From Bacteroidales bacterium (GTDB lineage Bacteria; Bacteroidota; Bacteroidia; Bacteroidales; UBA7960), in NCBI GenBank assembly GCA_003557385.1, contig PWON01000190.1:1-32225 (forward strand): a DNA stretch of 32,225 nucleotides. Direction: 5' to 3'. The notes below the pieces were generated by a model that saw nothing but the letters and a program-made list of their open reading frames with translations, was not told where the DNA came from and ran no database searches. Both the position numbers and the translations under genes were made by a program. Numbering within the stretch: position 1 is the stretch's first letter; every line of letters begins with the position of its first letter. This document shows, piece by piece, positions 8,770-26,899 of the stretch.

Positions 8770-10704
8770 ATGGTAGCAAAAATCAAGAAAAAACTCCATG
8801 AGTCAAAAGCCGCGAGATGGGTGGTACTGATTGTAGTCAGTTTTGCCATGGCCACCAACTATTACTTTTACGATGCCCTGGCGCCCCTTGCAGACCTTAT
8901 TCGCATGAACCTGGGCTTCAGTTCCACCGAATACGGCTTTTTTATTTCTGCCTATTCCATTCCAAATGTGTTTCTGGCCATGGCAGTCCTGGGTGGCATT
9001 ATCCTCGACCGCATCGGGATCCGGATCACCGGGTTTTCTTTTATCTTTTTAATGGGCCTGGGGGGTACAATTACTGCCTATGGCGCTTCCGATGCCTTTC
9101 TTAGCGGGGGGGTCGGATATAACTTCATGAATTCATTTTTGACCGGCTATTCTCCGGCCCTGAAAATGATGTCGTTGGGTTTCTTTATTTTCGGTTTGGG
9201 TGCAGAAACCAGCATCGTGGTGTTGTCAAAGGTGATTGTAAAATGGTTTAAAGGCAGGGAACTTGCCCTGGCATTGGGGTTAAATCTGGCCATAGGTCGT
9301 TTGGGCGCAGCCCTGGCGTTTACAATGTCGCCCAGGTTGATCTATCCCGAATGGACCACGGCCATTTGGTTCGGCGCCATGCTGCTATGGTTGGGCCTGC
9401 TTGCCTTCCTGTTTTATATGTTCATGGACCTGAAGCTCGATCGCCAGGTGAAGATCAACGTGAAAGACCCCGAGGATGAATTCAAGTGGAAAGACCTGAA
9501 AGATTTGGTTACCAACCGCTCGGTAATCTATATCACCTTGCTTTGTGTGACCTTTTATTCAGCCGTATTTCCTTTCCTCAAGTTTGCCCCCGACCTGCTG
9601 ATGAATAAATTTTCCATGCCTCGGGCACTGGCAGGCGATGTAACCTCCTACCTGATGTATGGTACCATACTGCTGACCCCGCTGTTTGGGTGGGTAGCGG
9701 ATAACAAGGGTAAAAGCGCCACCCTGATGTACCTGGGATCGGCCCTGCTTATAATAGCCCACCTGATGTTTGCCAAAACATACATCGAACCACGCATACC
9801 CATTGTGTTGCTTGGCATCGCTTTCTCACTGGTCCCTGCTGCCATGTGGCCCGCCGTGACCAAAATTGTCAGGCAAAGCAAACTGGGCACGGCCTATGGT
9901 TTTATGTTCTCGGTGCAAAATATTGGGCTTTGGTTCTTCCCTTTACTCATTGGTTTTGTGCTCGATACATCCAACCCCTTTTACAGGACAGAAATCGGCA
10001 CTTTAGAATTTACCGGAATACAGCAAGACGATCTCCAATACAGGGGGAAATACATCAACAGAAAGGGGGAACCGAATGCCAATATGAGCATTCATGTGAA
10101 TGTTTCGGTCTTCGAAGACAGCATCAGCGGCAATGTCATTTGGCGTGAAGTGCATATGGTGGAAACCAATGCCGGCGGGGAGTTTGACATGCACTTCGGG
10201 CATGGTGACGTGATTTCCAATGTGGATTTCAGCCAACTGATTGAACATGTACCCTACCGTGCTGAGATCATTGCCACCAGAAGAAGCCAGGAAGCACGCA
10301 TCTATGACGGAAGGTTCGAAGCAGACCGGGAAGGATACTTTAAAACCCGGGTTGATCAGGCTTACAGTCATTTGTATGAAAATACCCTGCGCGGCTCCAT
10401 CACCCTTTATGATGAGGACTCAGGCAGCAGGGTGTGGCAGGAAAACATACGTTTTTTCCTTGATGAACAAGGCAGCATAAAACTGCCCATGGGATATGGC
10501 CGCCTGGTATTTGCCGATCCTGTGTACTTTGGCCTGGATGAGGGGATGCATCAGGCCGAGGTGATCAAGCCACTCGACTACACCAACGCCATGCTGGTGT
10601 TTTCATTGCTCGGATTCATAGGGCTGGTGTTCGCGTTTCTGCTTAAGCGCGAAGACAAAACATCAGGATACGGGCTGGAGCGGCCAAACAAGGATATGGA
10701 TTAG
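8770..10704 (+). CDS. MFS transporter (MFSD1-like) with a ~200-aa hydrophilic, beta-rich insert before the last TM helix
   Basis: ARWVVLIVVSFAMATNYYFYDALAPLADLI...YSIPNVFLAMAVLGGIILDRIGIRITG...WFKGRELALALGLNLAIGRLG resembles the MFSD1 family; final TM YTNAMLVFSLLGFIGLVFAFLLK lies after the insert (about aa 403-600). Confidence 0.85.
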   Translation: MVAKIKKKLHESKAARWVVLIVVSFAMATNYYFYDALAPLADLIRMNLGFSSTEYGFFISAYSIPNVFLAMAVLGGIILDRIGIRITGFSFIFLMGLGGTITAYGASDAFLSGGVGYNFMNSFLTGYSPALKMMSLGFFIFGLGAETSIVVLSKVIVKWFKGRELALALGLNLAIGRLGAALAFTMSPRLIYPEWTTAIWFGAMLLWLGLLAFLFYMFMDLKLDRQVKINVKDPEDEFKWKDLKDLVTNRSVIYITLLCVTFYSAVFPFLKFAPDLLMNKFSMPRALAGDVTSYLMYGTILLTPLFGWVADNKGKSATLMYLGSALLIIAHLMFAKTYIEPRIPIVLLGIAFSLVPAAMWPAVTKIVRQSKLGTAYGFMFSVQNIGLWFFPLLIGFVLDTSNPFYRTEIGTLEFTGIQQDDLQYRGKYINRKGEPNANMSIHVNVSVFEDSISGNVIWREVHMVETNAGGEFDMHFGHGDVISNVDFSQLIEHVPYRAEIIATRRSQEARIYDGRFEADREGYFKTRVDQAYSHLYENTLRGSITLYDEDSGSRVWQENIRFFLDEQGSIKLPMGYGRLVFADPVYFGLDEGMHQAEVIKPLDYTNAMLVFSLLGFIGLVFAFLLKREDKTSGYGLERPNKDMD

Positions 10705-11687: not shown

Positions 11688-12293
11688 ATGAATTTTCTGG
11701 CCCATCTGTATTTGTCCGGCAATGATGATGACCTGATTGTTGGCAACTTTATCGCCGACATGGTGAAGGGGCAACAGATCAATGGCTACGATCCCGGAAT
11801 TATTCAAGGCATCCGCCTGCACAGGAAAATCGATCAGTTTACGGACAAGCACCATGTGTTCCTGCAAAGCAAGGCACGTTTGCGTGCGAAGTACCGTCTC
11901 TATGCCGGCGTGATCGTAGATATGTATTACGATCATTTTTTGGCCAGGTACTGGCCAGAATATTCCCGGCATCCGCTCAGCGAATACGTTGCCCGGACCT
12001 ATACCCTGTTGCAGAAACATATCGACATGCTCCCACCCCGCGCAAAGTTCATCCTTCCCTTTATGGTTGATAACAACTGGCTGGTCAATTACGCCGACCT
12101 GTCGAGCCTTGGTAATAATTTTGGGGGCATGGCAAGGCGCACACCCTTTGATTCAGGAATGGAAGAAGCGGTGATCGATCTGAAATCAAACTACCAAACC
12201 TATGAAACCGAATTCAGGATGTTTTTTCCCGAACTGACAGAATTTGTTGCCACACAGGGTGTTTCTCATGCACACCATGGTCTTCATGTTTAA
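11688..12293 (+). CDS. Acyl carrier protein phosphodiesterase (AcpH-like)
   Basis: MNFLAHLYLSGNDDDLIVGNFIADMVKG...GIRLHRKIDQFTDKH...YAGVIVDMYYDHFLARYW matches the ACP phosphodiesterase family. The ATG at 11688 directly follows the hldD stop; the longer ORF starting at 11643 overlaps hldD and is not favoured. Confidence 0.88.
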   Translation: MNFLAHLYLSGNDDDLIVGNFIADMVKGQQINGYDPGIIQGIRLHRKIDQFTDKHHVFLQSKARLRAKYRLYAGVIVDMYYDHFLARYWPEYSRHPLSEYVARTYTLLQKHIDMLPPRAKFILPFMVDNNWLVNYADLSSLGNNFGGMARRTPFDSGMEEAVIDLKSNYQTYETEFRMFFPELTEFVATQGVSHAHHGLHV

Positions 12294-25636: not shown

Positions 25637-26899
25637 TTATCTGGCAAGCAGAGTCTTTAAAGGTTCCTGCCTGGCAGCCGGAAACAACACATTATTGAGG
25701 ATCAGCCGGTAACCGGGTGAATTTGGGAAAAGGTCCAGGTCAGTTGGCGGGTCACCAACATGATGCCGGTAATCTTCCGGATCATGCCCTCCCAGGAAGG
25801 TAAATGTACCATTACCCCTTGATCCGTGGATATAACGTGCCTCATCCTTTGACCGGTTTTCACCCAGTATGGTAACAGTCGGTTTGATCACCTGCTTGTG
25901 GAATGCGGTGGTCTGTCCCATAAAGCCCTTTACAACTGTTTCATGGTTCTGTGTAAGCATGGTTGGCACCGGATCCCACTTGGCCGAAAACTCAAATAGG
26001 GTGAAGAAATCGGTTCGTTCGTTCCTGCCTGTTTTGGGCACATCAATATTGGATTTTTCGTAAATGGCCGGGTCGGGAACAACGACGAAGTGTTCAAATG
26101 CAAAGGTTCGGCTAAAATCGAGCCTTTCCTGTGCATCAGGATCGGGCGGGGTGCCATTGTACACCTCATGCAGGATGTCGACACCTTCGGCCGCCAGGGC
26201 GATATCGATGCTTTCCGGTGCCGAACACATGGCAAACATGTATCCACCCCCTTCTACAAAGTCACGGATTTTTTTTGCCACGGCAAGTTTCAGGTCCGAC
26301 ACCTGCGAAAACCCCATACGTCGCGCCATTTCTTCGGCCAACCGGACGTCTTCCTTATACCAGTCGGCATTACGAAACGCCAGCCAGAATTTCCCGAACT
26401 GTCCCGTAAAGTCTTCGTGATGCAAATGCAGCCAGTCATACAATGGCAATATCCCCGACAATACCTCCTCATCATACACTTCGTCGTAAGGGATCTCTGC
26501 ATAGGTCAGGGCCAAAGTTACCGCATCATCCCAGGGTAAACTGTTCGGGGGTGTATACACGGCAATGCGCGGAACCTTGTGCAAGCGTATTTCATCCATA
26601 TTTACTTCCGGATCGGATATTTCCCGGAGAATGCCTGCAGCCTGTATGTCGGCAATCACCTGGTAACCTACGCCACGCACCATCATTTCCTGCTCAAACT
26701 CCGGATGATGATCGAACATAAAACTGCCTCCACGGTAGTTCAGAAGCCAGCTTACTTCCACATCGTGGGTCAGGACATAATAGGCAATGCCATATGCTTT
26801 CAGATGATTGCGCTGGGTATTGTCCATGGGAATAAGGATTTGCGCAGCAAAAGCAGACAACGGCATCCATAACATAAAAAATGACAACAAATATTGCAT
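25637..26899 (-). CDS. Secreted protein of the family commonly labelled 'asparagine synthetase B' in Bacteroidota; true function uncertain
   Basis: Signal peptide MQYLLSFFMLWMPLSAFA; ILIPMDNTQRNHLKAYGIAYYVL...WLLNYRGGSFMFDHHPE...LYDWLHLHHEDFTGQFGKFW...GGYMFAMCSAPESIDIALAA. No recognisable AsnB glutaminase (N-terminal Cys) or PP-loop synthetase motif. Confidence 0.7.
   Translation of the reverse strand: MQYLLSFFMLWMPLSAFAAQILIPMDNTQRNHLKAYGIAYYVLTHDVEVSWLLNYRGGSFMFDHHPEFEQEMMVRGVGYQVIADIQAAGILREISDPEVNMDEIRLHKVPRIAVYTPPNSLPWDDAVTLALTYAEIPYDEVYDEEVLSGILPLYDWLHLHHEDFTGQFGKFWLAFRNADWYKEDVRLAEEMARRMGFSQVSDLKLAVAKKIRDFVEGGGYMFAMCSAPESIDIALAAEGVDILHEVYNGTPPDPDAQERLDFSRTFAFEHFVVVPDPAIYEKSNIDVPKTGRNERTDFFTLFEFSAKWDPVPTMLTQNHETVVKGFMGQTTAFHKQVIKPTVTILGENRSKDEARYIHGSRGNGTFTFLGGHDPEDYRHHVGDPPTDLDLFPNSPGYRLILNNVLFPAARQEPLKTLLAR

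Follow-up and report, generated by a model that had tools for sequence, protein, structure and literature searches.

The question raised by this locus is what a folded domain of some 200 residues may be doing between the last two transmembrane (TM) helices of a transporter of the MFS, and what such a transporter may carry. The gene occupies positions 8770..10704 on the + strand of the window, by which we mean the whole stretch analyzed (32,225 nucleotides, contig PWON01000190.1 of the Bacteroidales assembly GCA_003557385.1), and encodes a protein of 644 amino acids. Pfam recognizes in this protein MFS_1 alone (aa 24-389, 95 bits against a cut-off of 33), its sole PDB sequence match at E ≤ 0.01 is mouse MFSD1 (8r8q_A, E 2e-44), and the same structure is the best fold match of the transporter in Foldseek. 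A profile of the family matches MFSD1 in the PDB at E 1.6e-78, with no second match at 1e-20, and none of the POT/PTR2 (SLC15-like) models is matched by the protein, MFS_1 being the one family listed by Pfam and a POT model being absent from the NCBIfam matches. The full-length AF2 model, built from an alignment of 59 sequences, has 12 TM helices (pLDDT 90.3, pTM 0.86); together with the alignment, it places TM helices 1-11 of the core at aa 13-401 (8806..9972, +), of which TM11 is aa 369-401, and TM helix 12 at aa 605-632 (10582..10665, +). By sequence and predicted fold, then, this protein is an MFSD1-type transporter of the MFS. As to its substrate, we took from the published structure (PMC11252000) the residues that line the dipeptide site of MFSD1, and found the counterparts of D60, E150, R181, Y276, F280, W373, and Q396 identical in 59/59 bacterial relatives, those of Y56, Y59, N397, and L400 being kept in most of the 59. 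The invariant set includes D35 (8872..8874), equivalent to D60 of the dipeptide site, E146 (9205..9207), equivalent to E150 at the dipeptide N-terminus, and R177 (9298..9300), equivalent to R181 at the dipeptide C-terminus, all on the + strand. The sequence and fold match to MFSD1 in the PDB, combined with the conserved dipeptide site, points to dipeptides as the predicted substrate. Dipeptide transport was assigned to mammalian MFSD1 only in 2024, and in the open-access papers searched we found no bacterial MFSD1 that had been assayed.

Gene neighborhoods further support dipeptide import, because MFSD1-like genes often adjoin a gene for a PepD-type dipeptidase (TIGR01893, 625 bits against a cut-off of 344). 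Such a gene is adjacent to, and co-directional with, the MFSD1-like gene in 9/29 loci from across the phylum, each taken with only ~1.5 kb of flank, and the same arrangement is seen in the insert-bearing genomes G650 (L189) and G496 (L252). One example of a more elaborate arrangement is shared by G650 and its relative G792 (L245), in which an S9 dipeptidyl-peptidase-like gene, a PepD gene, and two MFSD1-like genes form a single cluster. No dipeptidase gene stands beside the window's own transporter gene, whose neighbors encode an M23 peptidase, a MerR regulator, an epimerase, and AcpH; the genome from which the window derives has two PepD genes. An earlier, sequence-only reading of this DNA had noticed the resemblance to MFSD1, which the sequence match, the fold match, and the site residues now substantiate, and had suggested peptides as the substrate, a suggestion that the invariant dipeptide site and the related genes adjoining PepD genes make likely. 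In one other locus (L098, 5977-10491), three different MFSD1-like genes are arranged in tandem. Within the window, the acyl carrier protein phosphodiesterase gene (11691-12293) lies on the + strand, whereas in relatives it occupies the same place on the - strand, apparently through inversion of this single gene; the 420-aa product of positions 25637-26899 is predicted to be secreted and has no Pfam match.

Where the protein leaves the membrane can be specified precisely. Because the TM11-12 loop is ~15 residues long in relatives with 60-71% core identity, and ~200 residues long in the window gene, alignment defines aa 403-601 (9976..10572, +) as a clean insertion, only three nucleotides shorter than the segment between the last two TM helices (9976-10575) that the sequence-only reading had pointed out. 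Modeled alone, with 33 homologous inserts aligned, this segment folds in AF2 into beta strands and short helices (pLDDT 95.6, pTM 0.86), and TM11 and TM12 of the full-length model are separated by such elements only. Additional TM helices, a possibility raised in the same reading, are ruled out by hydropathy, which over 19-residue stretches peaks at 0.75 in the insert, versus 1.26-2.67 in the TM helices, in agreement with AF2. By MFS convention the TM11-12 loop lies on the periplasmic side, and from this convention and the loop charge we infer a periplasmic position for the insert. A beta-sandwich had also been proposed, of which the mainly beta character is upheld by the model and the sandwich fold is without support, Foldseek finding no PDB match for the insert at E ≤ 0.001, and no interpretable match against the PDB and viral models together. 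Neither was the window's insert recognized as a known domain by sequence, with nothing in Pfam, nothing useful in PHROGs, and no sequence match in the PDB.

Profile comparisons are more informative as to the origin of the insert. Unit 1 (~aa 420-516, 10027..10317, +) and unit 2 (~aa 523-601, 10336..10572, +), the latter a diverged copy of the domain of the former, match each other over nearly their whole length (hhalign 96.8%, E 4e-10), and with divergent families added the match reaches 98.7% (E 4e-16), versus ~0.1% for reversed controls. The two related beta-rich units of the earlier reading are thereby borne out as homologous on profile evidence, making the insert a duplication. In 47 genomes of the family, the insert profile matched dozens of other ORFs, down to E 4.5e-9, through unit 1 only; in the secreted ORFs that were fetched, the match starts directly past a signal-peptide-like N-terminus, as judged by eye, and follows the pattern FNYQAVLRD..G...V.V.I.IL.GS..G.VVF.ETH..TN..GL.NL.IG. 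One secreted ORF with such a domain is encoded in the window's own genome (L128). Compared with this secreted-protein domain, unit 1 gives hhalign 98.1% (E 7e-14, reversed control 0.2%), while unit 2 gives 89.8% (E 2e-6, reversed controls <0.4%) with a wide profile including divergent inserts, and no significant match with a narrower one. By these comparisons, the units of the insert are homologous, unit 2 more weakly, to a domain that many secreted proteins of these bacteria carry past their signal peptide; in the transporter it is located between TM11 and TM12 and not, as in the fetched ORFs, past a signal-like N-terminus. The proposed likeness to surface or tail-fibre-like proteins of Bacteroidota thus stands as to a secreted-protein domain, but "tail-fibre-like" is too specific, because secreted proteins of many different kinds have this domain past their signal peptide. 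A 3746-residue ORF (L154:7333-18570) also opens with this post-signal-peptide domain. In unit 2, the region between the first two long strands holds a variable, often acidic, lineage-specific loop of 0 to ~42 extra residues (L068, L070, L086).

A more distant likeness is to the N-terminal domain of the Bdellovibrio mosaic adhesive trimer, which is reported to lack structural homologues among PDB entries (PMC10769870). The respective NCBIfam model (NF053851, Bdello_MAT_N) matches 30/33 inserts weakly (best 5e-8), at 23 bits against a cut-off of 60, and it also matches secreted proteins of the same bacteria distantly. The two share this distant sequence match and the absence of a structural relative in the PDB; they differ in that the former is N-terminal in a surface fibre, whereas the insert, far below the family cut-off, is doubled within a transporter loop.

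The distribution of the insert, which the sequence-only reading had proposed to survey, turns out to be patchy. MFSD1-like genes are present in 344/393 genomes of the order, and most of these genes, including others from soda-lake MAGs, are without the insert, which was detected in 14/393 genomes at E 1e-12, with at least four more among long ORFs, in nine families in total. Most genomes of the window's own family possess it, and in the window's own clade every full-length gene has kept it. Among 395 genomes sampled from the class, it was found in none except the window's own, and, judged by ORF length, it was found in none of the phylum sample. Since the insert recurs across many assemblies independent of one another, the one-contig genome G650 among them, an assembly artefact is ruled out. 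In two loci (L109, L114), taken from the relatives with 60-71% core identity, the neighbors are as in the window (alaS, M23, MerR, transporter, epimerase, acpH, iorA) and the insert is absent, and in five genomes (G492, G522, G542, G639, and G710), inserted and uninserted copies are found side by side.

As to how this distribution arose, a single gain in one clade was indicated by a first tree, restricted to close relatives, and was overturned once other families were added. The core tree with these families calls for 7-8 changes of insert state, at least six of them forced by well-supported branches. Multiple losses alone are disfavored, since uninserted genes at nested positions within inserted groups share the ordinary 15-residue NPGV...YDYTN loop of distant uninserted genes, and for this reason we infer from the sequences that repeated deletion is a less likely history than exchange with uninserted copies or repeated gain. 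One telling example is presented by the tandem paralogues of G515 (L227), whose residue identity is 57% over TM1-6, 69% over TM7-11, and 84% over the insert, and whose nucleotide identity is ~0.62 over the first two thirds of the gene and 0.83-0.98 across the insert, in a group where inserts from different families are only ~20-30% identical; these identities make it evident that one paralogue received its cassette from the other. The sequences, then, depict the insert as a patchy, exchangeable cassette in nine families of the order. In two genomes of the same family (G423, L168; G422, L169), the same TM11-12 loop holds an unrelated, long, charged, and probably helical insert of ~130-210 residues; as far as sequences tell, this site accepts different inserts. 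In L168-L172, L178, and L189:8556-10322, ~70-90 extra residues past TM7 resemble two more TM helices, a possible 14-TM form.

Insert and core also differ in their constraint. In close pairs with similar dS, dN/dS is ~0.1-0.15 for the insert versus ~0.02 for the core, and mean identity over all pairs is 43% versus 83%, with the ORF intact and the two-unit architecture kept across the nine families. By these estimates, the insert is under purifying selection, yet it changes several-fold faster than the core, and such free divergence appears unlike that of a part of the transport cycle; it fits a partner-binding surface, and it also fits weak constraint.

Two precedents make a docking role plausible, the ectodomains of the mammalian MFS peptide transporters PepT1/PepT2 and the complex of MFSD1 with GLMP. 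The former consist of two tandem immunoglobulin-like units between TM9 and TM10; they bind trypsin, no binding of peptides to them was observed, and transport is not appreciably impaired by their removal (PMC4597091). They are similar to the bacterial protein in that two tandem beta units are placed in a loop of the C-terminal half that faces outward, and they differ in belonging to another MFS family (SLC15, POT) and in the place of insertion, TM9-10 versus TM11-12; in place of a recognizable immunoglobulin-like fold, the bacterial insert has no match in the PDB at the above threshold. GLMP is a separate, glycosylated, beta-sandwich subunit bound to lysosomal MFSD1 (PMC11252000, PMC10990142). 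Here sequence and predicted fold assign both transporters to one MFS subfamily, they share dipeptide-site residues, and in both cases a beta-type domain is found at the outer or luminal face near the end of TM11, but it is part of the same polypeptide in the bacteria, and no relation between GLMP and the insert is detectable in sequence or fold. A search for GLMP itself (Pfam NCU-G1) was positive in 0/47 genomes, the control genomes also giving 0. Both parallels, as we compare them, are of position and role, not of descent.

We propose that this is an inner-membrane MFSD1-type importer of dipeptides with an accessory, probably partner-docking ectodomain, derived by duplication from a secreted-protein domain, a reading to which, taken whole, we give an even chance. 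The transporter would take up dipeptides from the periplasm, and cytosolic dipeptidases such as PepD would split them, maintaining a favorable gradient, much as cleavage on the far side has been proposed to drive the lysosomal MFSD1, a dipeptide uniporter (PMC11252000). The two-unit beta module in the periplasmic TM11-TM12 loop would remain outside the transport cycle as an accessory ectodomain, and our best guess is that a partner from the periplasm or the envelope may dock on it, next to the transporter, in a role like that of the trypsin-binding ectodomains of PepT1/PepT2. A bolder and more tentative extension, which we consider less likely to hold than to fail, is that the TM11-TM12 loop may be a plug-in site, at which a recombining cassette derived from a surface-protein domain, or in another genus the unrelated charged insert, would tether to the importer periplasmic partners that differ by lineage, for instance peptidases; this would be a bacterial counterpart, separately arisen, of the PepT1/PepT2 and GLMP arrangements.

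The main rival is that the module may be a built-in stabilizer, protecting or holding the C-domain at the outer face as GLMP does for MFSD1. Tyr416 of MFSD1, directly past TM11, contacts GLMP (PMC11252000), and the bacterial insert begins where the MFSD1 alignment ends, at residue 415, one residue before; GLMP is required for the stability and protection of MFSD1 and not for transport (PMC10990142), and retention of the insert by every full-length gene of the window's clade would suit such a function. However, most MFSD1-like genes of the order, the other soda-lake ones among them, do without it, packing on so conserved a core conflicts with the divergence of the insert, and GLMP is absent among the fold matches shown, so that we regard this explanation as somewhat unlikely. 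Substrate capture, which the sequence-only reading had raised beside partner docking, with both units binding peptides and passing them to the pore, as the position of the insert on the substrate entry side near the conserved dipeptide site might suggest, is quite improbable, given that no conserved ligand pocket is recognizable from the insert sequences, that the invariant residues (W/F..E.H, glycines) are mostly those common to the secreted domain, and that the removable PepT ectodomains bound no peptide. Least probable is a tolerated decoration, a foldable cassette of little function spreading by recombination between MFSD1-like genes, which would agree with the patchy distribution, the copying between paralogues, the fast divergence, and the unrelated insert that another genus has in this loop, but not with purifying selection or with an ORF and two-unit architecture kept in nine families.

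In conclusion, MFSD1 and ectodomains of MFS transporters were already known, but in the open-access papers searched we found no description of a bacterial branch of MFSD1 into which a surface-protein domain has been inserted, there to be duplicated and to recombine. This branch combines a conserved dipeptide site with PepD neighbors, and it offers natural controls, in the form of related transporters with and without the ectodomain, sometimes adjacent in one genome. It also presents a case in which a surface-protein domain appears to have been reused within a transporter and exchanged as a cassette.
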